A DNA stretch of 64,000 nt from assembly GCA_022870745.1 (NCBI GenBank), contig CP085323.1:5084001-5148000 (forward strand), given 5' to 3'. This document shows positions 3,889 to 41,980 of the stretch, in pieces. The notes beneath the pieces are model-generated. The model was not told the DNA's origin, ran no database searches, and saw nothing but the letters and a program-made list of their open reading frames with translations. The position numbers were made by a program, and so were the translations under genes. Position 1 is the first letter of the stretch, and each line of letters starts with the position of its first letter. This DNA is from Silvibacterium acidisoli. Its GTDB lineage: Bacteria; Acidobacteriota; Terriglobia; Terriglobales; Acidobacteriaceae.

Positions 3889-3967
<79 letters not shown>

Positions 3968-4050: not shown

Positions 4051-5307
4051 TCAGGCGCTCGCTTTCATTGGCTTGAGCACCATCTCCACGACCTTGCTAT
4101 TGGCTTCTCTCTTCGATGACGACATAGCCTGTCCATAGACATTCATCGTCGTCTGGATGGAGGCATGACGCATCAACTCCTGCTGCACTTTCATTGGCGC
4201 TCCGGTCTCGTCCAGCCAAGAACGATAGGTATGGCGGAACGTATGCCAACCAATCGAGCTGTACTTCCCGGCAGCGGCCTGCCGTTCCTCATGGATGAGT
4301 AGCCGTTTGCCGTTCGGGGTCGGTTTGACCTGGCTGCACCAGACGCCGATTCCCGCACCACACTTCGGACACGCCACAAGGCAGCACCCCGCAGGACGAA
4401 TGTGCCGCTTTTGAATCTCGGTCGTCTGGTAGGGCTTGTTCGTCAAAGGGCTTGCGAAGACCCAGCCTTCTTCCGTCGGCGTGGCCTCCTTGCTCCATGC
4501 GAGCAGAACCTCTACAAGCGCCGCATCCAGCGGTACATGATCCCGCGAATACTCCGTCTTCACGTCATCGACTTGCCCGTTCACGATGCTCCGCTGCACG
4601 AGAAGCTGCTGACGCTCGAAATCGAAGTCTTGCCACTGAAGCGCCGCGATCTCGCTTACGCGAAGACCGAGGCACTGCGCCACAATCACCATCGTCCGGA
4701 ATGGTTCTTTCAGCAGACCAAGGATGGTTTCGTACTCCTGCACAGTCAACACGGTTGGGCGACGGCGGCGCTTGCTGCCGTCCTTGACCCGGACGATCTG
4801 GATGGGATTGCGACGGTCGTTGAACAGTTCCCAACGCGCCGCGCACTCGAACATCAGGTGCATGACGCTGCGGATGTGTGCCTTCGACTTCGGGGCCATA
4901 TCCATGTTCTTCAACCATCCCTCGACCACCATCGGCCGGATCTGGTGCAACAAGTAACGCTCCCACCTCGGGCGAATATGCAGCTTGATATTCGACAGAT
5001 ACGACTTCCGGGTTGAGTAACGCTGTGGCAACTCTTCCTCGATGTATCGGTCGCAGATTGCGCCGAAGGTGACAGCACCCAGGTGATGCTGTGGTTTTTC
5101 TTCGTTGAGTTTTAGGAGAAGGGCCTCTACTGCAACCCGTGCGTCTGACTTGTTCTTGTACTGATTCGTGGTTCCGACGAAGGTAGCTTTACGCTTCCTT
5201 GTTCCATCGGCCTGCGTCTCGTAATACCGGAACTCCCAAACGTCGGCTCCCTTCGCCCGCTTCTTGAGCGTGACGCTTCCAAATTGGTATCTCGTGCGAT
5301 CTATCAA
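4051..5307 (-). CDS. int: ICE tyrosine integrase with cysteine-rich insertion
   Basis: A 418-residue tyrosine recombinase that should catalyse integration and excision at the tRNA-fMet site. The N-terminal arm-binding and SAM-like core-binding regions cover about 1-175. The catalytic domain shows Arg216 (GLRVSE), His355 and Arg358 (WHTFRH), His381 (RHASIQTT) and the Tyr391 nucleophile (NVYGQ). Between the catalytic Arg and the HxxR box, residues about 308-340 hold an insertion with Cys308/309, Cys313-x2-Cys316, Cys324 and His339, resembling a small zinc-binding finger. The gene is read toward the tRNA end, with the excisionase gene upstream on the same strand. Confidence 0.95.
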   Translation of the reverse strand: MIDRTRYQFGSVTLKKRAKGADVWEFRYYETQADGTRKRKATFVGTTNQYKNKSDARVAVEALLLKLNEEKPQHHLGAVTFGAICDRYIEEELPQRYSTRKSYLSNIKLHIRPRWERYLLHQIRPMVVEGWLKNMDMAPKSKAHIRSVMHLMFECAARWELFNDRRNPIQIVRVKDGSKRRRRPTVLTVQEYETILGLLKEPFRTMVIVAQCLGLRVSEIAALQWQDFDFERQQLLVQRSIVNGQVDDVKTEYSRDHVPLDAALVEVLLAWSKEATPTEEGWVFASPLTNKPYQTTEIQKRHIRPAGCCLVACPKCGAGIGVWCSQVKPTPNGKRLLIHEERQAAAGKYSSIGWHTFRHTYRSWLDETGAPMKVQQELMRHASIQTTMNVYGQAMSSSKREANSKVVEMVLKPMKASA

Positions 5308-9263: not shown

Positions 9264-9758
9264 CTATGCGAAACCGCCGTTCGCACGAATGACCTGCCCG
9301 TTTATCCATGCTCCATCTGGACCGGCCAGGAAGGAGACTACTCGCGCGATGTCTTCGGGCTGACCAAGGCGCTCCAATGGAGCCAACTTGGAGAGTTGGT
9401 CTATCTGTTCCTGACTCTTGCCTTTCAAAAAGAGGTCCGTGCCGGTAGGCCCGGGGGCGACCGCATTGACCGTCACTTTACGTCCCCGCAACTCGTTGGT
9501 CAGGACGTGGACAAGCCCTTCTACACCGGCTTTTGACGCGATGTACGGACCATACGTCGGAAAGTTCTTGGCGAGAACACTGCTGGATAGTGCAATGATC
9601 CGTCCGCCCTCAGAGATATGGGAAACAGTCTCTGCGAGAACAACGAAGGCCCCACGGAGGTTTGTATGAATGACCGAGTCGAAGGCTTCGATATGGTCTT
9701 CGCCAATAGTAGCGAGGGGCATGATCCCGGCATTATGGACAACAACATCAATGGATGC
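9264..9758 (-). pseudogene. SDR-family gene, N-terminal third deleted
   Basis: The minus strand reads IDVVVHNAGIMPLATIGEDH and on through the YxxxK region (YGPYIASKAGVEG) to a normal SDR C-terminus (GAWINGQVIRANGGFA). The Rossmann glycine motif and first 80 or so residues are absent. The reading changes abruptly at about 9757-9760 into the interior of a group II intron reverse transcriptase. Both partners are truncated at the join, so this is a deletion or recombination junction, not a clean insertion. An internal ATG at 9722 could give a 152-residue fragment without cofactor site. Confidence 0.85.
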
Positions 9759-10642
9759 TCGACCACATACCCACAGATAAAGAGGTGCTGGCGAAGTGGC
9801 TGAAGGCGGGCTTCATCGAAAATCGAACGCTGTTTCCTACGGAGGCAGGTACCCCGCAGGGAGGGATCATCTCGCCCACGTTGGCGAACCTGACGCTGGA
9901 TGGGTTGGAGCGGCTACTTAAGGAGACCTTCCGCAGGAAGGAAATCCAAGGGAAACCCTACAACCCGAAGGTAAACTTCGTGCGTTATGCCGATGACTTC
10001 ATCATCACCGGTTGCTCGAAAGAGCTACTGGAAAATGAAGTCAAGCCACTGGTCGAACGATTCATGTCCGAACGGGGCTTGCAGCTCTCACCTGAGAAAA
10101 CCTGCATCACGCATATCGAACAGGGCTTCGACTTCCTGGGGCAGAACCTGCGCAGATATGGCGACAAGCTCCTGGTCACTCCATCCAAGAAGAACATGCA
10201 CGCCTTCCTGGAGAAAGTGCGTGGTGAGATTCGTTCGAATCGAACCTTGAAGCAGGAGTATCTGATTAGGCTGCTCAACCCGATCATCGGTGGTTGGGCA
10301 TACTATCACCGTCATATCGAGGCGGGTCATGCGTTTCGGAAAGTAAGAATGGCCATCTGGCACTCGCTCTGGCGATGGGCAACGCGAAGGCATCCGAACA
10401 AGCCCGGTACCTGGATCGTAGATCGGTACTGGGACTGCTCCGGACGCAAGTGGTACTTCGCTGTACTGGCTGGTTCTCACGCGCAACGATCGCGTTCGGA
10501 TGTGGTCCGGTTGGCTGATCCCACCGATATACCCATCCTGCGCTACGTAAAGGTGAAGTCGGACGCCAACCCGTTCGACCCGCACTGGCGCGGCTACTTC
10601 GAGTCTCGGAAGAGATTCAGGAAAAACAGCCGCCATCGCTGA
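9755..10642 (+). pseudogene. ltrA: Group II intron reverse transcriptase/maturase, 5'-truncated
   Basis: 295 residues remain. They hold the RT palm with TEAGTPQGGIISP, the catalytic VRYADDFIITG, and the maturase (domain X) region up to DPHWRGYFESRKR. The N-terminal RT motifs are gone. The C-terminal HNH endonuclease with its zinc cysteines, common in this subclass, is also absent: the frame ends at RHR just before the intron RNA tail. The ATG at 9755 is fortuitous at the junction. Confidence 0.88.
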
Positions 10643-10769
10643 TCCTGTGTGTTGTGTTCTACCGGCTCCGCTCACGCGGGGCTTTCCACGGCTTGAGCCG
10701 GATGACGGGAAACTGTCATGTCCGGTTCTTAGGGGAGGGAGCGGCAGCAATGCCGTTCCCTTACCCGAC
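9757..10769 (+). mobile_element. 3' remnant of a group II intron
   Basis: The remnant starts inside the reverse transcriptase and ends with intact-looking RNA domains V and VI. The intron 5' half (domains I-III, RT N-terminus) is missing, so it cannot splice or move by itself. It separates the truncated SDR from the helicase-nuclease gene and may mark where the defence cargo was joined to older metabolic cargo. Confidence 0.88.
10695..10769 (+). ncRNA. Group II intron domains V and VI
   Basis: Domain V is the 34-nt hairpin 10695-10728: GAGCCGGATG on one side, a GAAA tetraloop, and CATGTCCGGTTC on the other. Domain VI follows (10729-10769) as a GGGAGCGGCA/TGCCGTTCCC stem with an AC 3' end. 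These are the most conserved parts of the ribozyme, and they fix the intron 3' boundary. Confidence 0.8.
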
Positions 10770-10780
10770 CCCTTCCCGAT

Positions 10781-10839
10781 AGAAGGGTCTACTATCGGTT
10801 TCACTGAATTAGCCCTGCCAAATCGACAAGAACCCTTCT
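10781..10839. repeat. Short inverted repeat before the helicase gene
   Basis: AGAAGGGT (10781-10788) and ACCCTTCT (10832-10839) are perfect complements 43 bases apart, in the interval between the intron end and the helicase start. They may be chance or part of an original flanking structure. No clear promoter is seen. Confidence 0.25.
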
Positions 10840-10927
10840 TGTAAAAAGATCGAACTTTGGCACCGCGTTCTATGATGGAGAATCACAGAAATGCCCGTTT
10901 CAAGGTGCAGGACCAGAGCAAATCCCT

Positions 10928-13900
10928 ATGCCCGACGCTCGTACAGACAGAACTCAAATGGGAACAACGGTTGATCTCGCGCAGGCTGAACTGGTGCGGC
11001 GGGGACTGGAGAGCATTCGCCGACGTCTTCTCGACCTCACCAATCGGAACAAGCTAATTAGTTTCCGGCACGGGAGATCGTCTCTCAGAATTGTTGACGT
11101 TGATCTCGACTCCGTTTACCAGAGCCTTTTGGATGAAAAGAAGTTTCCGTTTGTTCCTGTGCCAGAACCGAGTAAAGAGTACGTTGCCGAGTTGGGCGAG
11201 AAGCCCACGGCCAAGGACTATGCCGAAGAGATCGGATGGTCTACCTCGTACGATCTGGCGAAAGCTACCGGACAAACGGAGTGTCTGCCTGTTCTGTTCT
11301 ATCAGGAAGATTTTGAAACTATCATCCGCAAGATTGGCACCAGTGCAAGAACAGCTATTGAAGAATCAGGTGCAAACATATTGCATCTTGTTTTCGGCTT
11401 TTTGGAATGGCGTGAGTCGGATGACTCTACACAAGTACGACAAGCGCCCCTTCTCGTAGTTCCTGTAAGCCTGACAACTCCAAAGGCGAAGGAAGAGGAT
11501 CGTTCGATTCGCCTACAGTACACCGGAGAGGATCTGACTACGAATCTTTCTCTTGTTGAAAAGCTGCGACGCGATTTTGGTTTGGAAATGCCTTATATCG
11601 AAGAGGATGAAACTCCCGAGCACTATTTCGAGCGGTTCGCTCCTATCCTAAAGCTGAAACAGGATTGGCGAATTTGCCGACAGGTCTCCCTCGCCCTCCT
11701 GAGCTTCGGCAAACTCCTGATGTATTTAGACCTAGATGCGGAGCGGTGGCCGACCGAAGTACCGCTGGAAAAGCATTCGAGACTGATCGATCTATTTTCT
11801 GGTAACACTCCCGAAGGTCTTTCCTTTGCAACCGAATTTGATATTGACCAAGAGGCGATCAAGGGAGATGTTCCCGCGCTCGTATGCGATGCCGATAGCT
11901 CGCAACATAGTGCATTGATTGATGCAGCGCGGGGCAAAAATCTCGTGATCGAAGGACCTCCGGGGACAGGTAAATCGCAGACGATTACAAACCTTATCGC
12001 AGCGTCGATTGGCAGCGGGAAGCGTGTTCTATTCGTGGCAGAGAAAATGGCGGCGTTAGAGGTCGTGAAGCGGCGTCTGGATAATTCTGGCTTGGGAGAT
12101 TTCTGCCTCGAACTGCACAGCCACAAGACAAGCAAGATTAGTTTGCTGAAGTCACTCGAAGATCGGATTCAGGCATCCCCAAGGTTCTCCGCTCCTACCA
12201 CGCTCGCCCAAAAACAGGGACTCCTGAACTACAAGCGGGAGGAACTTACCAAGTATGTTTCGCTCTTAAACACGCCTTACGGAGCAATCGGCAAAACGCC
12301 GTTCGAGCTGATTTGGCAACGTGATGCACTGCGGCAAGGAGTGCCGGAGTCTCTTCGAGATATAAACACTGTTTCCTTTCCCGAAGCATATAGCTGGGAT
12401 TATCGAGCACTGCATGAGCGCAAAGATATGGTATCGACCTATGCTGCCCATCTGCGCCGAATGTCTGAAGCAGGGGGAGTTGCCGAGAAAAAGGAAAATC
12501 CCTGGGGTTGGCTTCCCAATATTGAGTTGAGTCTCGCAGACCAAGAACGGTTGTTGACCGCTCTTCCCATTCTCAGTAGTCAATGCACCCGTCGTATCGC
12601 CCTCATCGAAGCTTTGAGCCGCACGTTTTCGCATATATCGGTGGATGTGAGCGAGTGGTTGGGAACTGTGAATCAATGGTTCGGCACGCCAACTGCGGTC
12701 GCCGAACACAAGATTGATGTTGGAGATTGGCTAACGGGTGTCGATCAATGGTCGGCTGACATACCGAATGAAAATGATTGCCACTATGATCTGCTAGGCA
12801 CGCTATCCGAACAGAAGCGATTCGCGGCAACAGAACATTTTTTAGGTGCGTGTGAACGGTATAATGCGCTTGTCTCTGCCCTGCCGGGTGACGACACACT
12901 GTTGGATAGCAGTATCCCCGTACAGTTTCAGAGCCAGGACGCAAAGTTGCGTGATCTTGGCATGTCTGACTATTCGATCGGTAGCCTGTTGGCGTTGGCT
13001 AAGGCACTCTCCGATTCCGAAAGGCACGTTACACGCGCCAAAAATGCAACCAGTGAATTGAGTCAGGCATTAGGAGTCCGATCATCTTTCACTTTAAGAT
13101 GCGTCACTGATTTGGTTGCTGCGCGTCAGCTATTGACGACAGCTCCCCTCCATCTGGCGCATCTGCGTGGTCCAGATTTTGCTAAAGACGGTTTAGCGCA
13201 TCTTCTGGAACTCGGACAAAAGGAATGCGCCTCGCTCGTGGCAGAGCGAGATAGCCTCTCCGAGCATTTCGTTATAGACAGTCAAACAAACTCTAGCGAA
13301 TTGTTAGAAGCTGCCACCACGTTAGACAACACTCCTTGGTACGGCAGACTAGGAAAGGCGTATCGCCATGCCGGGATGCTCTACAAGGCTCACTGCCATA
13401 CGAATGCAAAACGGACGCGTAGCCAAAAGGCAGCCTGCTTGCGATTGCTGGCACACAATCGCGCCAAGATTGATGTCTTTTCAAGCAAGGCCGAATATGC
13501 CGTGCCATTGGGAGAACACTTCTCTGGCTTGACGACATCTTGGAATGATCTCGTCGTCGTAACGAAGTGGCATGAGGAAGTGTTTGCCCGCCTGCCAGAG
13601 CATCAGGTCTTTGCCTCCGAGATTCGCTCTGCACTGTTGACGTTGCCAGCGACACGCTTGAGAAGCATACTCGGCGTCGCCAGCGGAAGCCTGCCGCTTC
13701 CGGAAGAGTTAGAGGATGCACTGAAGCTGCTTACAGACTTGCATTCTCGTGTTCCCAATCTCACGTTTGACCATGTAGATGCAGAAGTCGATGTGTTTCT
13801 CAAAGAAGTACGGTCTATCGTGTCGGTGGCTGCGGAATTGTTGGAGATTTTGAAACCGATTCAGCTTCCAGAGTCTACTGCCAGAACCGAAATTGTAGAG

Positions 13901-16003
13901 CTGTTCGATTCGGTTGTCGCGGCCCGTACCCTCCGTGACTCGCTCAACAATAATCAGGAGGCAAGGAACATTTTAGGGGACCACTATAAGGGTGTTGCAA
14001 CGTCTCCTGCTCCCATCACTCATGCGCTATCTATTGTTCGTGCCGTCGATGCGTCCAATCTGCCTCTGGAAGTTCGAGGTTGGCTACTGACAAATGAATT
14101 TCTGATAAGGCTTCAGTGGCTCCGAGACTGGATCAAAGATTTTGGTGACAATGGCAATTCTTTGTCGGCTGCCGAGCGGGAGGTAATAGCCGCACTTCAT
14201 TCGGAGATTCACTTTGCCAAGCGTACATCGATAACTGCTCTACAGAAAGCTGTAACCTCGATTGAACGCTGCCGAGACTCGCAGGCATTGCTCCCTATCT
14301 GGATTGATGCACAGCGTTCCGCAAAACACTTGCACATGGCAGGACTCGAATACTTGGTCACTTTATGCTTGAACGGGTCGCTTCAACATGAAGCCTTGGT
14401 AAGCACGTTTGAATATCTGTTCTGTGACACGCTTCTGCGACGGTTGTTCAGTGAACATCCCGACTTGTGGCGTCTCAGTGGAGTTTCGCATGAGGAAGCC
14501 CGTTCCCAGTTCGCATCTCTGGATCAGTCTGTCATCAACCTTAGTCAACTCGACTTAGCGTATCGCGCAAGTCGGCGTCCTATTCCGCCGGGTATACGCG
14601 GCTCCGTTGTTAAAGAAACGACGGAGTTTGCGTTGGTGCAACACGAGATTGCAAAGCAACGTGCCCACATTCCGATCCGGCAGTTGATGCTTCGGGCTGG
14701 GCGGGCTGTTCAAGGACTGAAACCCTGCTTCATGATGAGTCCGATGTCTGTTGCACAATTTCTGGCTCCAGGGCAGCTATCCTTTGACCTTATTGTGATG
14801 GATGAGGCATCGCAGCTTCGTCCTGAAGATGCTTTGGGCGCGGTTGCACGAGGTACGCAATTGGTTATCGTAGGGGACCCGAAGCAGCTTCCTCCCACGT
14901 CCTATTTTCAGCGAACCATTGACGATGAAGCAGAAGAGGAAGAGGACAAATCCGCAGTAGCGGAAGGCGAAAGCATACTTGATATTGCACTGAGTCGTTA
15001 TCAGCCGGTTCGCAGGCTGCGGTGGCACTACAGGTCGCAGCATCACAGCTTGATTGCGTTTTCCAACTCCGAGTTTTATGACGGTAATCTGGTTGTTTTT
15101 CCTTCGGCTTATCACGAACACAGCGACCTTGGAGTGAAGTATGTGGATGCGAAAGGGATCTATGAAAATCGTAGAAATCCCTTGGAAGCTGAACGTGTTG
15201 TGGATGCCATTTTGGAACACATTATGCTGTATCCCTCGGAATCGTTGGGCGTTGTAACCATGAATTTCGAGCAGCGTGAGCTGATTGAAGAACTGCTGGA
15301 CGCGAAGTTGAAGCAGGACTCATTCTCTAATGGATGGATAGAGACCAAAGAGGCCACTCCCGAACCGTTCTTCATCAAGAATCTGGAGAACGTCCAAGGG
15401 GATGAGCGCGACGTTATCTTTATCTCCGTAACGTATGGCCCGGATTCTCAGGGCAACTATTTTCAACGATTCTCCGGCATCAACAGTCAGAGCGGACAGC
15501 GCCGCTTGAACGTCCTGATTACCCGAGCGAAGAAACGAACAGTAGTATTCAGTTCGCTTGATCCAGACATGATCCGCTCAGAGCCGAGCACTCCCTGGGG
15601 AGTCCGTGCATTGAAGGGCTACATGCAATTTGCAAAAAATGGAATTTCAGCGAGACCGGAAATTTCGCCAGGTGCGGAACCATCGAACGAGCACGAAGCT
15701 GCCGTGGGAGCTGTCCTGAAAGCAGAAGGGTACGATGTTGTACCGCAAGTCGGTGTCAGTGGGTATTTCATCGATCTGGCGGTACGTCATCCCAAAAAGC
15801 CCGGAGCATTTTTACTTGGTATTGAGTTTGATGGGAAAAGCTACCATTCAGGACGATCTGCACGTGACCGGGATAGGTTACGTCAGATGACCCTAGAGAA
15901 CCAGGGTTGGAAGATACATCGGGTCTGGTCTACAGATTGGTTTAAGAACCGGGACGGAGAGATTGAGCGATTATTAAAACGTGTCCGCATGTTAGAGATA
16001 TAG
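10928..16003 (+). CDS. DUF4011 - SF1 helicase - Vsr-like nuclease (Hhe-type defence candidate)
   Basis: A 1691-residue protein. The N-terminus has the DUF4011 motif LLDLTNRNKLISFRH (residues about 36-50). The split helicase core has Walker A GPPGTGKS at about 343, Walker B VMDEAS at about 1290, VGDPKQLPP near 1315, WHYRSQH near 1365, VQGDERDVIFIS near 1490 and VLITRAKKR near 1528. These are Upf1-like SF1 motifs. The last 100 residues are a PD-(D/E)xK fold of the Vsr/MTES_1575 type (FIDLAV, then GIEFDGKSYHSG). This matches, from memory, the single-protein Hhe defence architecture of Gao and colleagues (2020). It is probably DNA- or RNA-directed. The start could also be the ATG at 10958; neither has a good ribosome site. 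Confidence 0.88.
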   Translation: MPDARTDRTQMGTTVDLAQAELVRRGLESIRRRLLDLTNRNKLISFRHGRSSLRIVDVDLDSVYQSLLDEKKFPFVPVPEPSKEYVAELGEKPTAKDYAEEIGWSTSYDLAKATGQTECLPVLFYQEDFETIIRKIGTSARTAIEESGANILHLVFGFLEWRESDDSTQVRQAPLLVVPVSLTTPKAKEEDRSIRLQYTGEDLTTNLSLVEKLRRDFGLEMPYIEEDETPEHYFERFAPILKLKQDWRICRQVSLALLSFGKLLMYLDLDAERWPTEVPLEKHSRLIDLFSGNTPEGLSFATEFDIDQEAIKGDVPALVCDADSSQHSALIDAARGKNLVIEGPPGTGKSQTITNLIAASIGSGKRVLFVAEKMAALEVVKRRLDNSGLGDFCLELHSHKTSKISLLKSLEDRIQASPRFSAPTTLAQKQGLLNYKREELTKYVSLLNTPYGAIGKTPFELIWQRDALRQGVPESLRDINTVSFPEAYSWDYRALHERKDMVSTYAAHLRRMSEAGGVAEKKENPWGWLPNIELSLADQERLLTALPILSSQCTRRIALIEALSRTFSHISVDVSEWLGTVNQWFGTPTAVAEHKIDVGDWLTGVDQWSADIPNENDCHYDLLGTLSEQKRFAATEHFLGACERYNALVSALPGDDTLLDSSIPVQFQSQDAKLRDLGMSDYSIGSLLALAKALSDSERHVTRAKNATSELSQALGVRSSFTLRCVTDLVAARQLLTTAPLHLAHLRGPDFAKDGLAHLLELGQKECASLVAERDSLSEHFVIDSQTNSSELLEAATTLDNTPWYGRLGKAYRHAGMLYKAHCHTNAKRTRSQKAACLRLLAHNRAKIDVFSSKAEYAVPLGEHFSGLTTSWNDLVVVTKWHEEVFARLPEHQVFASEIRSALLTLPATRLRSILGVASGSLPLPEELEDALKLLTDLHSRVPNLTFDHVDAEVDVFLKEVRSIVSVAAELLEILKPIQLPESTARTEIVELFDSVVAARTLRDSLNNNQEARNILGDHYKGVATSPAPITHALSIVRAVDASNLPLEVRGWLLTNEFLIRLQWLRDWIKDFGDNGNSLSAAEREVIAALHSEIHFAKRTSITALQKAVTSIERCRDSQALLPIWIDAQRSAKHLHMAGLEYLVTLCLNGSLQHEALVSTFEYLFCDTLLRRLFSEHPDLWRLSGVSHEEARSQFASLDQSVINLSQLDLAYRASRRPIPPGIRGSVVKETTEFALVQHEIAKQRAHIPIRQLMLRAGRAVQGLKPCFMMSPMSVAQFLAPGQLSFDLIVMDEASQLRPEDALGAVARGTQLVIVGDPKQLPPTSYFQRTIDDEAEEEEDKSAVAEGESILDIALSRYQPVRRLRWHYRSQHHSLIAFSNSEFYDGNLVVFPSAYHEHSDLGVKYVDAKGIYENRRNPLEAERVVDAILEHIMLYPSESLGVVTMNFEQRELIEELLDAKLKQDSFSNGWIETKEATPEPFFIKNLENVQGDERDVIFISVTYGPDSQGNYFQRFSGINSQSGQRRLNVLITRAKKRTVVFSSLDPDMIRSEPSTPWGVRALKGYMQFAKNGISARPEISPGAEPSNEHEAAVGAVLKAEGYDVVPQVGVSGYFIDLAVRHPKKPGAFLLGIEFDGKSYHSGRSARDRDRLRQMTLENQGWKIHRVWSTDWFKNRDGEIERLLKRVRMLEI

Positions 16004-16309: not shown

Positions 16310-19075
16310 TTAGAGCGATAGCTCCAAGCCTTCCATGTTCTGCACCTTCTGTTGCCCCACACTCTGTTCAGGCGCATTACTCTGTGCCTTTGTGAAGTCC
16401 AGTGCGGCGCTCTTACTCACATCGCGGCTGAGGTTATCTCCGAGAGACGCGGCATTATCGGTGTAGACGTGGGCCTCATGCGAAGCCCGCGAGATGGAGA
16501 CATAGGCAAAGCGTGAATTGATGAGTTCGGGATGGACATTGCTGTCGATGTTCACCAAGACGCGCTCTGCGGTAAGTCCCTGCGAACTGTGAGAGGTCAC
16601 GGCATAGCCGTGATCGAAGTGCTGCATCTCGTTTGCATCAAACGTGACGGATTTTCCGTTATCCATGCGAACGGCAAGTTGTCCGTCCCTTGTGATCTGC
16701 TCGATGGTGCCGAGGTCTCGATTGGCAACACGCAGCTCCCGATTCGGCGCGGTAAATTGCAGCCGGTCGCCTACGGAAAACTCACGCTCGATTTCACGGT
16801 AGGCGCTGATACCACGCAGCCGTGAAGGATCATAACTTACCTGCTCTCCATTCTGCTTTTGCACTGTGATGAGGTTTTCTTTCGGATACGTGGTGACGAC
16901 CGTTGCATAGCTGCGCTGTTCGATGCCGAGGTCTTTGCTTCCACGCTGGTAATGCAGTATGTCGCCCACTTGATACCGTGCGGCCCATGCACGGTCGGCT
17001 CCTGTCATATCGGAGCGCGGCGACAGCACGCGCATGGTGTAATCGGCGGACTGAACCATACCTAGCGACTGCAACTCTGCACGGACGGCCTGATTGATCT
17101 CACGGCGCGAGGCGTTGTCGGGCGAGACGATGATCGTATTTTCGGGATGAGCCGCATAATTCTTTGCAATCGCTTCGATGCGCTGTGGCGCGTCTGCAAT
17201 TTCAGTGATGTGGCCCTGCTGTTGCAGCATCGCAATGCCGGGAGCAATTTCTCCTTTGGACAGGTGTTCGACGGCTTTCAGCAGCTCCGGGGCTTTCTGG
17301 CGCACGATCTGATCAAGCTGCGCGGTGTGCATCCCGGCCTGTACAAGCTGCTCGAAGGGCTTTCCGGCTTCGACGCCCTGATGCTGCCGCGTATCGCCGA
17401 TCAATAAGACTCTATCCTGCGGAGCAATCTTGTTGAGGAAGTCACGCATTTGTTGGGTTGATGCCAGGGAGGATTCATCGACCATATAAAGATGCTTGCT
17501 CGCAGGATCGCCGGCGGCCTGCAGGCCGCCGCCTGCGAGGAAGTGTTGCAACGTATCGGCCTTTATTCCGGCATCACGAAGCTGGTTCGCGGCACGAGAC
17601 GTAGGGGCGAATCCTTCCACGATGTAACCGTGTTGCTCCGCACCTTCACGGACAGCAATCAAGGCGCTCGTCTTGCCCACGCCCGCACTGCCTTGCAATC
17701 CCTGCATCGTATCGTGAGAGGTCAATATCTGTTCTATAGCACGATGCTGGGCCGCGTTGAGCTGCTGGCGCGAGTCGGTGAGCGCGACGGCATCCTGAAT
17801 GGACATGATCTGCGGAGCCTGATTCTGCCCCTGCTCCATCCGGCGAATCACATCCTGCTCGGCTCGGATGGTCAGCGCGGTGGTGAACTGCCGTCCCGTT
17901 TCATGCTTTTGTCCCGGTACTTCCTGAAACTCGCCCGAAGCAATCCGCGCCTCGAAGGTGGCGCGAACCTGCGGATAGGTCATCTCTCCCATGCCCCGCT
18001 GCAAGGCATCACGGAAGATATCGCGCTCATCGGTGACGGCTTCGCGCTCAAAACTGCGGTCGCGGGCATAGGTGACGGTTTCCTGTGCCCGTAGCTGCGA
18101 AGCCTCCGGCGTCCGCTCCTCGGCATGGCCGCGCTGCCGCGCCTGAGCAACTACGCGGTCGGCCTGATTGCCGAACTCAGCGGCGACCTGCCGGTGCGCC
18201 TCCAAGACTTCGGCGGGAGTATGAATTTCCTTTTTATCGCGGGTGGAGTGGGCGGCGATCTGCGCAGCTTCCGGTCCTTCATAGCCGGTCTTTTCAAGGT
18301 AGTCGCGTATCTGCTGGCGGCGCGGGCTGGATGCATCCAGGTACTCCTGCGAGTAGCCTTTGATCTCGGGAGCGCCGCTCCGACCTGGTTCGATCTCATA
18401 GCCGAGATTGCGGAGCCGGTACATCAGTTCGGATTGATAGACGGCGGTAGCAAACTGCTGGCTATCGAATAAACCCTGCGGCTGGAGAGCGCGGAAAGTT
18501 CCATTGTCGCGCTCGGTCATATTGAAAATTACCGTATGGGTGTGAAGCTGCGGAGCGGCGTAGCCATCTACGGGCCGCGCGGTGTCATGCTCGAATTTGG
18601 CAGCCACAAATTGTCCGGTCGTCTCGGCGGGATGATTGCCGCCGATGCGGGCCTGAGTGTACCGTTCCAACTCGTTCAACGCGGCATTGACGGCCTCGCG
18701 ATGTGCCTCACGCACACGGTCATCTCCGCCGACAAGTGCCGTGAGCGATACGGATTTTGGGGCGGAAAACGTGGCATCCCAACCGGCACGATGCTCGACA
18801 GAGGTAACGATCTTTCCATCTGTTGTCTGGTACTCGTGCCGCTGGCGATGCTGGACAAGCTGGTCGCCGATCTGCGGATGCTGGCCTTCACTCAGACGCG
18901 CAAATTCTTCTGCGCCGATGGCCCCGGCAAGGCCGAACTTCCCAGCGAGTCTGCCATGCCACTCGCCTAAGATCGTGTCGCCCTGCTTCCAGTAGTTCTG
19001 CGCGGCAGAGGTGAACTCCTTTTCGTGATAGGTCTGCGCCTGCGATGCCGAGAGCGGTTTCGAGATATTCAGCAT
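16310..19075 (-). CDS. traI: MobF-family conjugative relaxase (TrwC/TraI-like)
   Basis: A 921-residue relaxase-helicase that should nick oriT and unwind the transferred strand. The relaxase domain has candidate catalytic tyrosines Tyr16 and Tyr28 near the N-terminus, SAPKSVSLTAL, and the metal-binding His163 with His178-x-His180 (LHTHTVIFN). The SF1 helicase half has Walker A GSAGVGKTS at 462-470, then VDESSLAS and IGDTRQHQGVEAGKPF. Size is near that of TrwC. The coupling-protein gene ends two bases upstream, so they are in one operon. It is the last gene of the minus-strand transfer region. Confidence 0.95.
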   Translation of the reverse strand: MLNISKPLSASQAQTYHEKEFTSAAQNYWKQGDTILGEWHGRLAGKFGLAGAIGAEEFARLSEGQHPQIGDQLVQHRQRHEYQTTDGKIVTSVEHRAGWDATFSAPKSVSLTALVGGDDRVREAHREAVNAALNELERYTQARIGGNHPAETTGQFVAAKFEHDTARPVDGYAAPQLHTHTVIFNMTERDNGTFRALQPQGLFDSQQFATAVYQSELMYRLRNLGYEIEPGRSGAPEIKGYSQEYLDASSPRRQQIRDYLEKTGYEGPEAAQIAAHSTRDKKEIHTPAEVLEAHRQVAAEFGNQADRVVAQARQRGHAEERTPEASQLRAQETVTYARDRSFEREAVTDERDIFRDALQRGMGEMTYPQVRATFEARIASGEFQEVPGQKHETGRQFTTALTIRAEQDVIRRMEQGQNQAPQIMSIQDAVALTDSRQQLNAAQHRAIEQILTSHDTMQGLQGSAGVGKTSALIAVREGAEQHGYIVEGFAPTSRAANQLRDAGIKADTLQHFLAGGGLQAAGDPASKHLYMVDESSLASTQQMRDFLNKIAPQDRVLLIGDTRQHQGVEAGKPFEQLVQAGMHTAQLDQIVRQKAPELLKAVEHLSKGEIAPGIAMLQQQGHITEIADAPQRIEAIAKNYAAHPENTIIVSPDNASRREINQAVRAELQSLGMVQSADYTMRVLSPRSDMTGADRAWAARYQVGDILHYQRGSKDLGIEQRSYATVVTTYPKENLITVQKQNGEQVSYDPSRLRGISAYREIEREFSVGDRLQFTAPNRELRVANRDLGTIEQITRDGQLAVRMDNGKSVTFDANEMQHFDHGYAVTSHSSQGLTAERVLVNIDSNVHPELINSRFAYVSISRASHEAHVYTDNAASLGDNLSRDVSKSAALDFTKAQSNAPEQSVGQQKVQNMEGLELSL

Positions 19076-19077
19076 GG

Positions 19078-21039
19078 CTACTCATTTCCGAGTGTGAAAC
19101 GGTCCTGCGTCTGTGCCTGCGCGTCGTCTGTATCCTCTTCAGAGGGATCGTCTGCCGCTTCTTCGGCGCTCTCATCCACCGACTCCGGTTTTCGCGCCTG
19201 GAGCGTTTTGGGATCAAAGGAAAGCTCGTCGTCCTCCAACGTGCGTGGCTCAAAAGCGGGCTGTGTCTTCGGCAGGTCGCTATAGGAAAACGAGAAGCGG
19301 GCAACGTGGTTTCCTAGCTTGAGAAAGGCGTGCATCGGATCAAGGCCGGAGATTTCCGAGTCCATCACAAGTGGCTCGGCCTGCCGGTCCAGACTGAAGT
19401 TCTTGCCCGCGCGGGAGCCGTCGAAGTGCGTCTCTCGCATCCGCTCGATTTCGACTTTTCCGATAGCGGCGCTCACCCACTCGGCGGCCTTCGGCTCGGT
19501 GGTCTTGAGAAAGATCTTGGTGGCTGGCTGCGATAGCATCACCTCGGCAATATGGCCGTAGATGACCTCTAATTGGGCTTTACCCTGAAAGCCAAGCACC
19601 AGCGGATTTTTCGATTTCCGGTTCTCGGTGATGGCGGTGTGCAACTGCGGAAGCCGTTGCAGACTCGCCAGCTCGTCCAGCACAAACCACACCGGGCGCT
19701 GGTTCTCAGTAGGCGCATTCAGGAGCCGCAATACCAGCAAATCGATCCAGAGACTATTGAGCGGGCGCAATGCCTCGCGCTCGCTTGGCTGCGAGGTAAT
19801 GAATATCCAGCCCTGCCGTTCTTTCGCCCATTCGGTCGCGCTCCATGTGCGCTTCGCCTGGTCTTTCCGAGGCAGCATACGCAGGCTGTCGGCAATCAAC
19901 CCAAGCGAAGCCAGAACGCCGTTGCGCTGCTGCTGTGCGCCTTTGGCAATCATCATCGCCATCTCGGTTCCTTGCACACGGCGGTCGATCTCATCGGGGT
20001 TCGCCATCCACTGCACAAGCTCCTGCGGGGATGGGCCGAAGGTCAACAAGTGGGCAAAAATCTTCTGCGGCGTCTCTACGAAAAACTCGCCCTTTTTGTC
20101 GGTGGTGGGCTGGTACAGGGATGCGGCGATAGCCTTTGCTTCGGCCTTGCGCCGCAACTCTTCGGCTGGCCCCCAGTAGGGGCAGCGCCGATCCAAAGGA
20201 TTGAGAATAATGTCACCATTCTCCGGCCTATAAAATCTCTGTACGAACTCACAGGCCGGGTCATACACGATCGCCGAATGGCCTCTGCTTTGCACCTGCC
20301 GGAGTATCTGCATTATCAGGGTCGTTTTGCCCGAACCCGTGTCGCCCATCAGTTCGATATGCTGGTCTTCCACGCGCAGCGGAATCCGCATCATCTTGTC
20401 GTAGTCATCGGTTTTGATGCCGATGCCGTCGCCCTGCACGGCCTTGTTGAAGCCTTTGGGCGAGACAAGAAACGGGCCTTTCAAGCGCCGTCCATACTTC
20501 ATCTCCTTGCGGCGGCGGATGTCTTTGACGATGGAAAACGGAAGCTGCAAGCCAAGCGCCAGTACACCGAAAAGGATGGGCATTTTGAAGATGTTCCATA
20601 AGCTGTCACCTCCATACACGGCACTCTGAAAGTATGCGTTCAAGAGCTTGTTCTGATACGGAATGGATGGTCCACGATAGAGCGAGCGGAAGCCAGCGGC
20701 GCGGGCGGCTGCCGAAAGCTTAAGCGGTATATGCTTGCCGTCTGCCGTGGGCGTAGTCCCTGCCGTAACGTCGCTTTCGGTGACGATGTGGGCGTGGTTT
20801 TTGTCATCCGCGAGGGCGAGCAACTGGTACTTGTCGGTCTTGTGTATCATCCCGGCAATGCCGGTGCGGAGATAGTACGGAAGATAGAACTGCTGCAACG
20901 GCGTGAGCACGAAACTGAAACGTAAGTAGACGAACAAGCCTGCGGCGACAAGGGAAAGAAAGATCGCGCCATAGGTATAAATCGGGGAGTGCGGAGGAAA
21001 GATGACAGTCTCTTTCCGGCCCCATTGTGTCGTCGCCAT
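19078..21039 (-). CDS. Type IV coupling protein (VirD4/TraD/TrwB family)
   Basis: 653 residues. Membrane helices lie at about 22-45 and 155-172. An AAA+ ATPase follows with Walker A GDTGSGKTT at 232-240 and Walker B VWFVLDELASLQRLPQL. The TrwB-like FKAN-region is replaced by ENRKSKNPLVLGFQGKAQLE. It docks the relaxase-DNA complex to the secretion channel and drives DNA export. The acidic C-terminus (rich in Asp/Glu) is usual for relaxosome contacts. It lies immediately upstream of the relaxase and just downstream of a small DNA-binding protein gene. Confidence 0.95.
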   Translation of the reverse strand: MATTQWGRKETVIFPPHSPIYTYGAIFLSLVAAGLFVYLRFSFVLTPLQQFYLPYYLRTGIAGMIHKTDKYQLLALADDKNHAHIVTESDVTAGTTPTADGKHIPLKLSAAARAAGFRSLYRGPSIPYQNKLLNAYFQSAVYGGDSLWNIFKMPILFGVLALGLQLPFSIVKDIRRRKEMKYGRRLKGPFLVSPKGFNKAVQGDGIGIKTDDYDKMMRIPLRVEDQHIELMGDTGSGKTTLIMQILRQVQSRGHSAIVYDPACEFVQRFYRPENGDIILNPLDRRCPYWGPAEELRRKAEAKAIAASLYQPTTDKKGEFFVETPQKIFAHLLTFGPSPQELVQWMANPDEIDRRVQGTEMAMMIAKGAQQQRNGVLASLGLIADSLRMLPRKDQAKRTWSATEWAKERQGWIFITSQPSEREALRPLNSLWIDLLVLRLLNAPTENQRPVWFVLDELASLQRLPQLHTAITENRKSKNPLVLGFQGKAQLEVIYGHIAEVMLSQPATKIFLKTTEPKAAEWVSAAIGKVEIERMRETHFDGSRAGKNFSLDRQAEPLVMDSEISGLDPMHAFLKLGNHVARFSFSYSDLPKTQPAFEPRTLEDDELSFDPKTLQARKPESVDESAEEAADDPSEEDTDDAQAQTQDRFTLGNE

Positions 21040-21965: not shown

Positions 21966-22913
21966 TCAGGCCAGCTTGCGGCGGGCAATCATGCGCTGCG
22001 CGGTAGCCGCAATCTCCCGCGCACGAGCGGAGCAAAGTGCGGCGGGAATCTCAAAGCGGCGGCTGGATTCGAGCATCGTAATCACGTCGTCGATGAGGAT
22101 GCCTTCGATAAGCCAAAGGCGAGCCGAAGCAACGTCAACCGTTCGCTGCGCGTAATAAAGTGGGTTGGGTTTATCGGAACGCCGGGACGCCAGCAACCGC
22201 GTCAGCTTCACCGCATCTTTTCCGTAAGCAAGCTCATGGGAAACCCATGCCCAATCGTGTTCTGAATGAGTATGTTTTTGGGGTGGTTTTCGACCACTAT
22301 TCGAGGGCGGCAAGAACGACGATTGGGCAGCCTGAATATCGAGCCGGAAATCGCTCGGATTCCATACCGCATCGCAGGGATATTCGACAGTGACGCGGCG
22401 GGCTGGATCGTACTTGCAGTTCAGCAGTCCGGGGAGGCGGAGAACCCGGTTGCAGTCGGTGCAGGCCGGATCGCCGCCGAAGGCGATGGCGAGCAGCTTG
22501 AGCATGGTTTCCTGACGCTCAAAGTCGAATCCATCGACCCGCCAAAGCACCTGATACTTGCCCGACGATGTGGACAGGATTGCGGTCGGTGTAGGCACGG
22601 CATACGATGCCTGGAGCGCAGCAAGCCGGGCATCCCCATCCTCGTCTATGTCGAGGTACAGATGACGGACGGAAGCGATGCTCTCTTTCGTCCGCTTCCG
22701 GCTACCGGAGCGGAGTGGATTGGCGGCAACATAGACATTCGCTCCAGTGCTGTTCTCATGCGCAAGCCAGCCGAGGTAACGAGGCGCAAGCGCCTGTTCT
22801 AGCCGCACGACTCGCTGCGTCGTAAAGACGGGATTCTCCCGGCGAAGCAGGACGGCAATCGTCTCGTCTGGAGCGAAGCAACGGGTGAGAAATTCGGCGG
22901 CAATACTCTTCAT
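21966..22913 (-). CDS. RepB-like DNA primase domain protein
   Basis: 315 residues of the RepB primase family (small archaeo-eukaryotic primase fold). VRHLYLDIDEDGD holds the metal-binding acidic pair, followed by TPTAILSTSSGKYQVLWRVDGF and GDPACTDCNRVLRLPGLLNCKY. Such enzymes prime the transferred single strand or replication of the excised circle. The start at 22913 overlaps the VirB11 stop by four bases (ATGA). With SSB next door this gives the ICE its own lagging-strand start function. No separate replication initiator was seen. Confidence 0.85.
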   Translation of the reverse strand: MKSIAAEFLTRCFAPDETIAVLLRRENPVFTTQRVVRLEQALAPRYLGWLAHENSTGANVYVAANPLRSGSRKRTKESIASVRHLYLDIDEDGDARLAALQASYAVPTPTAILSTSSGKYQVLWRVDGFDFERQETMLKLLAIAFGGDPACTDCNRVLRLPGLLNCKYDPARRVTVEYPCDAVWNPSDFRLDIQAAQSSFLPPSNSGRKPPQKHTHSEHDWAWVSHELAYGKDAVKLTRLLASRRSDKPNPLYYAQRTVDVASARLWLIEGILIDDVITMLESSRRFEIPAALCSARAREIAATAQRMIARRKLA

Positions 22914-23866
22914 GGCTGCACCTCGAAAACAGGCTCGATCTGGAAGCGTTTGGCGTCGCGGTCATAGCCACGAAGCGCCAGCACTTCGCGGATGACGCGG
23001 CGGCCCGGTCGCCGCTCGACATGGACGATGAACTCGACCGCTTCGGCAATCTCCGCCTCTACGTCCGAGAAGGTAGCTTGCGAGTGCGAACGCATAACAA
23101 GATTGGCGAAGCGATCCAGAGCTTTTTCAGCGGAGTTAGCGTGGATCGTGGCGAGCGAACCGGAGTGGCCCGTATTAAGCGAATCGAGCAATGTGCGGGC
23201 CTCGACGCCGCGCACTTCGCCAAGAATGATCCGGTCTGGTCGCCAGCGAAGAGCGGACTTCAGAAGGTCGTCGAAGGTGATGTTTGCCTTGAACGTGTCC
23301 GTCTGACATTCGACGGCCAGCAGGTTCGGCTTATGGAGATGCAACTCCGACGTGTCTTCGATGACCACGATGCGCTGGTCTTCGGGAATCGCGCTTGCCA
23401 GAGCACGGAGCACGGTGGTCTTTCCCGTCGAGGTTCCACCGCTGATGAGGAGTGTCTTTCCTGCGCCGATTTGCTCTGCCAGGAACCCGGCAAGCGGCAG
23501 GGTAAGTGTGCCGCGAGTAATGAGGTCATCGACCGTGAAATGACGGCTGGGGAACTTCCGAATGGTGAGTGCCGGAGCAGGCCGAACGACTGGCGGAATC
23601 ACCGCCGCAAGGCGGCTCCCATCGGGGAGCTGCGCGTGCAGCAATGGATTGTCTTCGTCCAGATGTCTGCCAAGCTGGTTGGCAATCACTTCGAGGCCGG
23701 TGCGGAGCCTCTGCCCGTCGAAACGGATGGTCTTTTCCTGATGGAGAATGCCATCGCGTTCGTACCACCACGAGGCATCGGGATTGCCCATGATCTCGCT
23801 AATGGAATCATCCAGCAACAGCGGCTCAATGGGACGGAGGAATGGAAGGATCAAATCGAAACTCAT
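22910..23866 (-). CDS. virB11: VirB11/TrbB-type secretion ATPase
   Basis: A 318-residue hexameric traffic ATPase. It has an N-terminal domain, then Walker A SGGTSTGKTT at about 142-151, the Asp box VVIEDTSELHL, Walker B ALRWRPDRIILGEVRG and the His box TGHSGSLATIHANS. It works at the cytoplasmic base of the T4SS in pilus assembly and DNA translocation. It lies between ssb and the primase gene, overlapping the latter by four bases. Confidence 0.95.
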   Translation of the reverse strand: MSFDLILPFLRPIEPLLLDDSISEIMGNPDASWWYERDGILHQEKTIRFDGQRLRTGLEVIANQLGRHLDEDNPLLHAQLPDGSRLAAVIPPVVRPAPALTIRKFPSRHFTVDDLITRGTLTLPLAGFLAEQIGAGKTLLISGGTSTGKTTVLRALASAIPEDQRIVVIEDTSELHLHKPNLLAVECQTDTFKANITFDDLLKSALRWRPDRIILGEVRGVEARTLLDSLNTGHSGSLATIHANSAEKALDRFANLVMRSHSQATFSDVEAEIAEAVEFIVHVERRPGRRVIREVLALRGYDRDAKRFQIEPVFEVQP

Positions 23867-23931
23867 AGCGTGAACCTCAAGCGTTGGAAGCCCGGCGTGT
23901 GCCGGGCTTCCGCGAGGGATAAGGAAGTGGC

Positions 23932-24306
23932 CTATGCGGCCACTTCCTCGTCGGGGATCTCATCGAACTCTTCTTCGGGCGCAGCGGCTTTCTCGGCACG
24001 GTCGAGCTTGAGGATGGACCGGACGCGAATCTGATCTCTCTTCGTGCCCTTGTAGGCGGTGTGCTCGATCTTGCCTTCGATCTCGATATGAGCGCCCTTC
24101 TTGAGCTTGGCTGCGAAGTCTCCCAGCTTGCCGGAGACAATCAGGTTGTGCCATTCGGTGAAGTCCGTGTACTTGCCGGTCTCCCTGTCCTTCAACGACT
24201 CCTTCGTAGCGAGGGAGAGCGTGGTGAACGGCTTATTGTTTTTGCCGGTGCGAACGACGGCATCGCCGCCGAGGAAGCCCATGAGGATTGCTTTGTTCTT
24301 GTACAT
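23932..24306 (-). CDS. ssb: Single-stranded DNA-binding protein
   Basis: 124 residues with one OB fold (AILMGFLGGDAVVRTGKNNKPFTTLSLAT, then TEWHNLIVSGKLGDFAAKLKKGAHIEIEGKI). It ends in a short acidic tail (EEEFDEIPDEEVAA) instead of the usual DDDIPF-like tip. The ATG at 24306 follows GGAG at seven bases. It should protect the ssDNA entering the recipient and may work with the RepB-like primase. It is separated by about 440 bp from the T4SS genes upstream, so it may have its own promoter. Confidence 0.92.
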   Translation of the reverse strand: MYKNKAILMGFLGGDAVVRTGKNNKPFTTLSLATKESLKDRETGKYTDFTEWHNLIVSGKLGDFAAKLKKGAHIEIEGKIEHTAYKGTKRDQIRVRSILKLDRAEKAAAPEEEFDEIPDEEVAA

Positions 24307-24750
24307 GTTGTGTCTCCGTTTTGAAATTCCCGATCTGCTCGGATCACGAAATAAGCGAGGGGCCATGCTCCCTAGTGCCGAAGCTCTGCATTTGCGGAAG
24401 GTTCGGAAAATCTTTTTGCGTTCGTTGCACAAAAGTTTTCTGAAAGCCGTAAAAGCAGAAGAGCGAGTCGCCGACGGGCGCATGAAAAGCCCCGAAGCCG
24501 TGACCGTGCAGAAAGCGGGATACATGCGGGAGACACACGCAAGAACAATCCTCGTTGTCCGCTTCCTGGTGATGCCATGTACCGGCAATCGCCGTTCACT
24601 TTCCCTGCGTACAGAGTCGAATAGGAGCCGCAAGCCACCACCGAAGTCACCTGTCTTCCGGCAACTGCCGCCATGCTCAGGAGCACACCTCGAAGGGGCA
24701 GGATTCGATGCTGTACCTGGGGCATGAAGTGGCATAACGAGTCCGGTTCC
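24307..24750. other. 444-bp gap inside the transfer region
   Basis: This lies between the VirB8-type stop and ssb, in an otherwise tightly packed minus-strand run. Open frames across it show no family features, signal peptide or good ribosome site. It probably carries the end of the T4SS transcript and the ssb promoter. A decayed gene or untranslated RNA cannot be excluded. Confidence 0.4.
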
Positions 24751-25434
24751 TCAGTTGAACGCCTGATCCGCACGGAAGCGCACAATGGTGAGGCCGAGAG
24801 GATTCACGGCAAGCTCGTTGTTCTTTACCACCTCGCGGAAGACATAGGTAACGCTGGCGGTCCACCGTTCCCGCTTGAGTTCGGTATGATCTGCTGGATT
24901 CGTGTACACCCTTTCAAATTCGATTCGAGCCGAATAGGGCGACTGCCGGAGGTCGTCAAGGATGACGTTCTTCACTTCCACATCGACATACGGAAGGTTG
25001 CCGTCCTTCACGTAGTTTTGAATGACTCCTTCTCTACGCTCCTGGTCGATCACAGCCCGTTGCACGTCGCTGTTTAAGAAATACAGAGAGTGCTCTTGGT
25101 CCCGTTCAATCGTGAAGCGATTGCGGCTGAAGTACAGCTCCGTCCAGCGTGTGAGGTAATACTTGTTTTCGGCCTCTTGGGGGCGGTACTGGAAGTTGCG
25201 GTAATCAATAGCCTCGGCCCGGCCCACGTCGCTCACGCGGATAATCAAGGGGTGCATGTTGGCAAGCGCTCTTTGGCTCTTGTAGATCAATACTCCCAAC
25301 ATCAGGCATACGGCGCATAGGACAAGGATCGTCACCTTGAGATAGGTATTCATTACCAGCGGGTCGCCGTACTGCTCAAGGTAGCGTTCCGCTGCGCGGG
25401 TGATTTCCGGTGTCGCCTTTGTTGCTGTGGTCAT
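24751..25434 (-). CDS. VirB8/TrbF-type T4SS inner-membrane protein
   Basis: 227 residues. A cytoplasmic N-terminus is followed by one membrane helix at about 33-52 (VTILVLCAVCLMLGVLIY) and a periplasmic NTF2-like domain with YYLTRWTELYFSRNRFTI and TASVTYVFREVVKNN, as in TrbF/VirB8. It scaffolds the channel between inner-membrane ATPases and the outer core. It follows the TrbL-type gene by 12 bases. Confidence 0.88.
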   Translation of the reverse strand: MTTATKATPEITRAAERYLEQYGDPLVMNTYLKVTILVLCAVCLMLGVLIYKSQRALANMHPLIIRVSDVGRAEAIDYRNFQYRPQEAENKYYLTRWTELYFSRNRFTIERDQEHSLYFLNSDVQRAVIDQERREGVIQNYVKDGNLPYVDVEVKNVILDDLRQSPYSARIEFERVYTNPADHTELKRERWTASVTYVFREVVKNNELAVNPLGLTIVRFRADQAFN

Positions 25435-25446
25435 AACTTGCGCTCC

Positions 25447-26313: not shown

Positions 26314-26333
26314 GTCTGTACCCTCTGGTTTTC

Positions 26334-27221: not shown

Positions 27222-27252
27222 AGTGGTGTCCTTTCGTTAGCGGTTGTTGGGT

Positions 27253-27549: not shown

Positions 27550-27558
27550 GGAACCTCC

Positions 27559-28878: not shown

Positions 28879-28883
28879 GACAC

Positions 28884-41933: not shown

Positions 41934-41980
<47 letters not shown>

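Follow-up and report, generated by a model that had tools for sequence, protein, structure and literature searches.

The window is a stretch of 64,000 nucleotides from Silvibacterium acidisoli (contig CP085323.1, positions 5,084,001 to 5,148,000 of the forward strand), and the subject of this study is the hhe-like gene found at 10928-16003 in it. The gene starts with ATG, is intact and is the longest among the open reading frames (ORFs) listed for the window. It encodes a giant fusion of a DUF4011 domain, a superfamily 1 (SF1) helicase with a helical arm and a Vsr-like nuclease. An earlier interpretation made from the letters alone (the sequence-only reading) had described a 1691-residue fusion of this kind with a UPF1-like helicase, and the order of the Pfam matches agrees with it (Table 1). 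The nuclease domain reaches 116.2 bits compared with a Pfam cut-off of 38.2. RecA domain 1 is split in two, with AAA_19 and AAA_30 matching around Walker A (residues 326-384) and AAA_11 matching around motif II (residues 1285-1324). That reading had also placed helicase motifs I and II about 940 residues apart, and the distance from the Walker A lysine K349 to D1292 of motif II is indeed 943 residues.

Walker A, the DEAxQ motif and the RecA1 fold were all found, and the residues of the motor and the nuclease are highly conserved. K349 is present in 93 of 94 aligned members and D1292 and E1293 in all 94, while the acidic nuclease residues D1616, E1633 and D1635, which are presumably catalytic, are present in 94, 93 and 94 members respectively. 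The closest full-length relative is a gene of Granulicella sp. L60 (L054, 87% identical). The ratio of nonsynonymous to synonymous substitutions (dN/dS, Nei-Gojobori) between the two genes is 0.056 overall, 0.071 in the insert between the two parts of RecA1 and 0.015-0.040 in the RecA parts, values that are rough because dS is about 1.2. The gene is under purifying selection. Promoter and terminator scans gave nothing above shuffled sequence.

Three relatives deviate in their reading frame, active site or tail. L037:484-5790 (identical to L060) has asparagine for the Walker A lysine and keeps the other residues checked in the motor and the nuclease; it is either a natural motor-dead variant or an error. 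The Edaphobacter aggregans gene (L056:8001-13078, about 87% identical) consists of two ORFs, of 867 and 825 amino acids, that overlap, which may be due to decay, sequencing error or frameshifting. A long-arm member of 2373 amino acids (L104:7233-14354) has an unusually long tail of 383 residues past the nuclease.

Helical modules of the insert

The insert has no Pfam match, in line with the sequence-only reading, which had found no recognised domain there, but it is not featureless. A structure prediction, as that reading had proposed, was run with AlphaFold2, here on residues 215-1345 and with 58 sequences. In this model the insert is all-helical (predicted local distance difference test, pLDDT, 81.9) and sits between the RecA1 strand at CLELH and the RecA1 strand at CFMM; the relative placement of the parts is unsure because the predicted template modelling score (pTM) is 0.45. 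Judging by the strands of the model and by the topology of UPF1, the insert takes the place of UPF1 subdomain 1C, which is about 60 residues long in UPF1 compared with about 800 in the window protein. The RecA1 fold is common to the window protein and the SF1B helicases UPF1, IGHMBP2, SETX and Dna2. Structural alignment of the modelled RecA1 part gives Z scores of about 16-17 to all four (for UPF1 Z 16.9 over 224 residues with a root-mean-square deviation, rmsd, of 4.0), and Dna2 ties for best.

The insert contains helical modules of about 150 residues in the order A-A-B-B, two related modules in each half. Profile self-comparison matches residues 828-942 to 983-1090 and residues 531-653 to 679-778, at offsets of 148-155 residues. 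The B modules U3 and U4 match with a probability of 97.6 and a score of 67.9, where 100 column shuffles reach at most 16.1. For the A modules U1 and U2 the probability is 70.3 (61-83 depending on segment) and the score 32.4, compared with a shuffle maximum of 14.9. The other four module pairs are equally helical and reach probabilities of 2-5 in three cases and 29 for U2 and U4. Matches between 520-660 and 640-805, 940-1085 and 1070-1255, and 1070-1255 and 1240-1375 were discarded because the segments overlap.

Modules U2 and U3 folded alone give a pLDDT of 89.3 and a pTM of 0.78. Compared with known structures for a likeness to SMC-like or dynein-like coiled-coil stalks, this model has its best matches in Mgm1 (Z 6.3, rmsd 11.3), JetABC (Z 5.5, rmsd 15.6) and MukB (Z 5.4), all below the noise level for helical models. 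These weak alignments (Z no higher than 6.3, rmsd in many cases above 10) are no evidence of kinship; they spread over SMC-like chain ranges that presumably include both outgoing and returning arm strands. Foldseek gave no match at E<=0.001 for U2-U3 in PDB or viral models, which does not make the fold new, and three matches for the larger model, all to long coiled-coil or axonemal chains with template modelling (TM) scores below 0.1. No description of a modular arm was found in the one open library searched.

The modules diverge at two levels in the four closest relatives, with U1 and U4 at one level of identity to the window protein and U2 and U3 at another. U1 and U4 are 77.0 and 77.3% identical in L054, 48.4 and 50.7% in L034, 28.9 and 32.6% in L058, and 33.1 and 30.6% in L055. 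The corresponding values for U2 and U3 are 83.2 and 85.1%, 68.5 and 68.8%, 49.0 and 52.6%, and 49.0 and 49.4%. The four comparisons all share the window's own branch. This pattern suggests that U1 pairs with U4 and U2 with U3.

Arm length among relatives

The sequence-only reading had pointed to a very large insertion in the helicase core and had proposed a comparison of the inserts among homologues. The insertion is there but it is not special to this protein, and the idea that it is unique was rejected, since the distance from motif I to motif II is 618-1215 residues in the 91 members measured, the window among them. The distances fall into classes of 618-629 (21 members), 843-971 (62 members) and 1205-1215 (seven members), with one member at 709. 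The medians of the short, medium and long classes are 620, 923 and 1210, giving steps of 303 and 287 residues. The flanking distances have medians of 348, 341 and 343 from motif II to E1633 (range 327-355) and 309, 322 and 312 from N41 to K349, and these medians shift by at most 13 residues between classes.

The 91 members are the 94 full-length rows less three that lacked a motif match (L096, L083 and L134, with aligned spacings of 929, 929 and 934). The relatives were the best 80 of 472, representing 78 distinct loci, and 61 of them gave a full-length row. Several rows of the medium class are near-copies of one another, and the class sizes are not natural frequencies because 17 of the 21 short members were fetched after a survey had marked them as short. 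That survey covered 44 places matched by both halves, omitting places matched by one half or in one piece, and found 22 at 625-641 residues, 17 at 879-984 and five elsewhere (540, 597, 721, 845 and, in a broken reading frame, 1771).

Profile matches give the short class one A and one B module. U1 and U2 both align to one segment of it (probabilities 92.6 and 97.4, scores 52.2 and 77.4, shuffle maxima 15.2 and 26.7), and U3 and U4 both align to the next (probabilities 96.9 and 94.8, scores 71.0 and 52.8, shuffle maxima 16.4 and 16.1; 40 shuffles each). Repeat hidden Markov models (HMMs) were trained on medium-class rows together with two long-class rows, and counts for held-out members are therefore given separately. 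Two A and two B modules were found in 51 of the 54 medium training rows. Among held-out members, two B modules were found in eight of nine from the medium class (L134 counted as medium) and in none of the 21 short ones, and 20 of the 21 short members have at most one A module. The first half of the long-class arm has an extra segment that matches U2 of the medium class with a probability of 58 and the long class's own U2 with 94.8.

A quick tree was built from 94 rows and 872 columns without the arm, with SH-aLRT support. The long class forms one clade in this tree, and the class labels need six changes. Arm length has therefore probably changed several times in evolution, with some of the changes at L155, L137, L053 or L135, which the tree program flags as long branches whose joins may be false. 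Both the arm length and the modular plan recur across phyla.

Family placement and the conjugative element

The sequence-only reading had found the protein to fit the single-gene defence type Hhe, which holds at the level of the superfamily but not of the curated family. The NCBIfam profile for Hhe (NF042953) matches in one stretch, residues 27-1689 on profile positions 2-1683 of 1797, and the domain order is colinear. The score is however 1418.5 bits, below the cut-off of 2000 that is passed by L134 (2735.3) and L071 (2318.2). The C-terminal Hhe tail, corresponding to the last 110 or so profile positions, is absent: 20 residues follow the last nuclease tryptophan W1671, compared with 146 in L134. 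This annotated Hhe from a Klebsiella pneumoniae plasmid resembles the window protein in its DUF4011 domain, SF1 helicase and MTES_1575-type nuclease and in its large insert, with 934 residues from motif I to motif II, but the insert is only 18% identical and the two proteins are in separate clades. The tree groups the window protein with L054 (support 100), with L034 (99) and then with L055, L058 and L067 (100), all Acidobacteriota; the K. pneumoniae Hhe is found beside a Pantoea protein and with Pseudomonas ones. The window protein is thus a tail-less, diverged lineage of the Hhe superfamily, outside Hhe as curated. Hhe itself was reportedly introduced by Gao et al. 2020.

The second curated family with the same core fusion is ProA (NF058533), for which the score of 1147.2 bits is below the cut-off of 1500. 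The ProA member L042 (1618.1 bits) passes and carries DUF3320, a domain also present in L043 and L044, whereas the window protein has no Pfam match to it at E<=1. NCBIfam names both families anti-phage. The best PADLOC model is PDC-S37 with 1258.8 bits, compared with 981.1 for Hhe, although it is matched in three stretches and the library has no cut-off; PDC-S37 is itself a candidate single-gene system. Giant fusions of an SF-I helicase and the same Vsr-like nuclease, with C-terminal winged helices overlapping DUF3320, were described in 2013, with the prediction that the winged helices recognise invading DNA and that the fusions act without a modification partner (PMC3710099). The window protein has the helicase and nuclease in common with the fusions as described there, but the HEPN, transglutaminase and DUF3320 domains give no Pfam match in it.

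Members of the family are patchily distributed. Matches at E<=1e-30 were found in 39 of 399 genomes of the class and in 26 of 396 of the phylum (four in both sets, the window's own included). Plasmids gave 352 records at the same threshold, all below 60% identity and 243 of them from Klebsiella. Phage records gave one match, in an unannotated record, and a scan of IMG/VR gave no confirmed relative. The window's genome has a second, diverged member (L041:7195-11942, at C1:989296-993308), which is in two ORFs of 1116 and 447 amino acids.

The hhe-like gene belongs to the cargo of an integrative conjugative element of 38 kb in tRNA-Met that also carries QatABCD, since an integrase, a relaxase, a coupling protein, VirB-type genes and all four Qat genes lie between two exact 47-bp repeats (Table 1). 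Allowing up to three mismatches, the genome has just two copies of a 29-bp part of the repeat. In the Granulicella and Edaphobacter loci, too, the gene converges with a relaxase gene that is similar at the DNA level, and in L034 the DNA at this place matches the relaxase in its C-terminal part (window positions 16449-17675). The genes on the side away from the relaxase vary between the first two loci. In Edaphobacter they include a 960-amino-acid ATPase with Ppl as best PADLOC model (E 1.3e-27) and a protein with an Abi_alpha match below the threshold (27.5 bits, cut-off 29). In Granulicella there are three genes (L054:1824-7310), one each for a protein with a RecA, an IMS (Y-family polymerase) and a DNA polymerase III alpha domain, arranged as in an ImuA-ImuB-DnaE2 mutagenesis cassette. 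An SRAP-type gene lies near the hhe-like gene in three loci, recognised by a Pfam match in L056:6312-6959 and by an identical MCGRY start in L034:16269-16988 and L054:1037-1675.

The element has two further loci of note. A RES-domain protein and an adjacent ORF (33487-34789, reverse strand), neither with a PADLOC match, might be a toxin-antitoxin pair. A 545-amino-acid protein by the right end (40065-41702, forward strand) has no Pfam match at E<=0.001 and a weak match to PDC-S35 (E 5.2e-5).

The broken intron upstream of the gene, also noted by the sequence-only reading, was recovered as a 5'-truncated group II intron. Its reverse-transcriptase ORF (9755-10642) covers only RVT_1 positions 97-205 of 205, the second half, and an Rfam group II domain is found at 10693-10769. 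A putative short-chain dehydrogenase ORF (9264-9722, reverse strand) abuts the reverse-transcriptase ORF and by eye seems to lack its N-terminal part. The 5' end of the dehydrogenase gene seems to be cut where the truncated intron begins (9264-9760), which suggests a deletion between the two. DNA alignment with the sequence upstream of the gene starts at 10840 for L054 and at 10838 for L056, and about 90 bp of common upstream sequence is therefore left.

Table 1. Coordinates, in the window, of the hhe-like gene with its domains and arm modules and of the element around it
Feature	Position	Strand	Remarks
Hhe-superfamily gene (DUF4011 - SF1 helicase with helical arm - MTES_1575/Vsr-like nuclease)	10928..16003	+	1691 aa
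DUF4011 domain	11024..11566	+	residues 33-213; Pfam E 5.6e-37
RecA domain 1, first part	11888..12313	+	residues 321-462; Walker A GPPGTGKS
Arm module U1, A type	12500..12943	+	residues 525-672; edges approximate
Arm module U2, A type	12944..13390	+	residues 673-821; edges approximate
Arm module U3, B type	13391..13852	+	residues 822-975; edges approximate
Arm module U4, B type	13853..14302	+	residues 976-1125; edges approximate
RecA domain 1, second part	14678..14947	+	residues 1251-1340; motif II DEASQ
RecA domain 2	14948..15607	+	region given as residues 1341-1560; AAA_12 at 1349-1542 (Pfam)
MTES_1575 / Vsr-like nuclease	15695..15982	+	residues 1590-1685; Pfam E 7.1e-34
5'-truncated group II intron	9755..10838	+	C-terminal reverse transcriptase/maturase part and catalytic domain; both edges inferred
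Left attachment repeat	3921..3967	+	47 bp exact; from inside tRNA-Met (3889-3965) to 2 bp beyond
Right attachment repeat	41934..41980	+	47 bp exact
Tyrosine integrase	4051..5307	-	
MobF relaxase	16310..19075	-	convergent with hhe-like gene
TrwB/TraD coupling protein	19078..21039	-	
Type IV secretion genes	22910..32254	-	T2SSE/VirB11-type ATPase, TrbL/VirB6, TrbI/VirB10, VirB4 type, plus SSB
QatABCD defence operon	35131..39957	-	all four genes matched: QatA E 6.5e-104, QatB 4.2e-12, QatC 1.8e-91, QatD 3e-63

Possible function of the arm and of the enzyme

The window protein is probably a tail-less anti-phage (or anti-mobile-element) enzyme of the Hhe superfamily, carried as cargo of the element, in which subdomain 1C has been expanded to a helical stalk. 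A UPF1/Dna2-like motor driven by ATP would bind and move along nucleic acid, loading on invading DNA, and the C-terminal Vsr-like nuclease would cut the DNA. The stalk would run out from RecA1 through the A modules U1 and U2, turn, and come back through the B modules U3 and U4, with U1 packed on U4 near the motor and U2 on U3 at the tip. The insert starts and ends on RecA1, and parallel growth of its halves therefore fits an out-and-back stalk. The arm would most likely act as a lever or a sensor that engages a DNA structure or protein of the phage or a partner copy of the enzyme, and this contact would release the motor to feed DNA to the nuclease.

The helicase-nuclease Hna, an SF2 protein, shows that comparable gating exists in defence. 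The likeness, a helicase and a nuclease in one defence effector, is in outline only and kinship is not claimed. An inhibited dimer of Hna is destabilised by a phage single-strand-binding protein (PMC13381803).

The stalk would change mostly by about two module lengths, giving one, two and probably three rungs. That the whole superfamily has a stalk (A)n(B)n with n of 1, 2 or 3, and alters its reach by gaining or losing an A together with a B, is plausible, with the balance tipped slightly in favour.

Several observations weigh against this picture of the enzyme and its arm. L067 lacks the paired identity pattern (32.3 and 34.0%, 27.5 and 33.6%), and partial correlations of unit divergence over 1521 pairs were rejected as proof of the rung pairing, being highest for U2 and U4. 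The column shuffles lose helical periodicity, which makes the non-partner pairs the better control. The spacing before K349 is not constant, since the medium class spans 261 to 412 residues between N41 and K349. Only four of the nine held-out medium members have two recognised A modules; the annotated Hhe L134, the one held-out medium member without two B modules, has two A and one B, and L155 reaches two B only through weak matches (E 0.03 and 0.003). One A and one B were both recognised in just 11 of the 21 short members and two A in one, and L044, with the spacing of 709, has two A and one B. The third rung is less sure and rests mainly on length, as the extra second-half segment of the long class resembles nothing and in six of the seven long members the repeat HMMs recognise two modules per half instead of three.

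The evidence from neighbouring genes is also narrower than its numbers suggest. At 14 loci of the family in the class, 93 flanking ORFs of at least 150 amino acids matched 72 PADLOC models at E<=1e-20 (25 of these listed), compared with seven for 119 ORFs in 14 regions elsewhere in these genomes, but the excess comes mostly from two restriction-modification (R-M) operons at two of the 14 loci. A type I R-M operon directly beside L041 accounts for 52 of the models (5, 34 and 13), and the one beside L049 matches largely the same ones. The enrichment was therefore rejected as broad evidence for defence. Four further flanking proteins of three loci gave no PADLOC match. Some of the defence association expected by the sequence-only reading is nevertheless found, with QatABCD on the same element and type I R-M operons beside two other members, and as far as sequence context can tell, the genomic setting supports a defence role.

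The sequence-only reading regarded the insert as the likely specificity region. A target-recognition region diversified by an arms race is possible but doubtful. It would fit the low identity of the insert, the lowest of the protein in L034 (63% compared with 89-96% for the RecA parts, with U1 at 48% and U4 at 51%), and a dN of 0.098 compared with 0.015-0.037 in the helicase core, so that the protein diverges about three times faster there. The DUF3320 winged-helix tail of the 2013 fusions, proposed there to recognise DNA (PMC3710099), is absent, which leaves the arm and DUF4011 as candidates for DNA recognition. On the other hand, diversifying selection was rejected, as dN/dS of the insert is close to that of the whole gene and the gene average gives no sign of positive selection. 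Arm length and plan recur across phyla as for a mechanical part, and within the window's clade the pair U2-U3, presumed to form the tip, has changed less than the base pair U1-U4. Nothing favours specificity over a mechanical role, and the arm stays a candidate.

The remaining contrary points bear on the alternative that the protein is a helper in DNA repair or replication, for example in Dna2-like end processing or element maintenance, and no immune effector, which we consider unlikely. Dna2, which ties for best RecA1 match, is itself a nuclease-helicase, the Granulicella copy has the RecA and polymerase genes beside it with no PADLOC match among five scanned neighbours, and the Edaphobacter copy has the SRAP-domain gene nearby. 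According to one study, every Pseudomonas aeruginosa isolate studied has DUF4011 genes among the core genes that border a defence hotspot (PMC10250203), and therefore not every family member is mobile cargo. A repair helper fits poorly with the patchy distribution, with the QatABCD operon, the Ppl-like ATPase and sub-threshold Abi_alpha match in Edaphobacter and the R-M operons at L041 and L049, and with the anti-phage names of both curated families of the same architecture. That the insert is a single large helical domain without repeats is improbable: all-helical proteins do yield spurious profile matches which shuffles cannot control for, and U1 and U2 match only modestly, but non-partner modules stay mostly far below the partners, the offsets are regular, the length steps are about 300 residues and the A modules share one site in the short class and the B modules another.

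The gene is ordinary as defence cargo, and the stepwise modular arm is the point of interest. Single-gene defence candidates of the Hhe kind are widespread, and no mechanism for them was found in the literature searched. Defence systems of Acidobacteriota have been little studied, and the window provides a natural pairing of an Hhe-like protein and QatABCD on one conjugative element of this phylum. With almost half of the protein recognised as a repeated arm of stepwise length, the arm becomes open to experiment. If the proposed scheme is true, the stalk would serve the immune motor-nuclease as a kind of ruler or lever.

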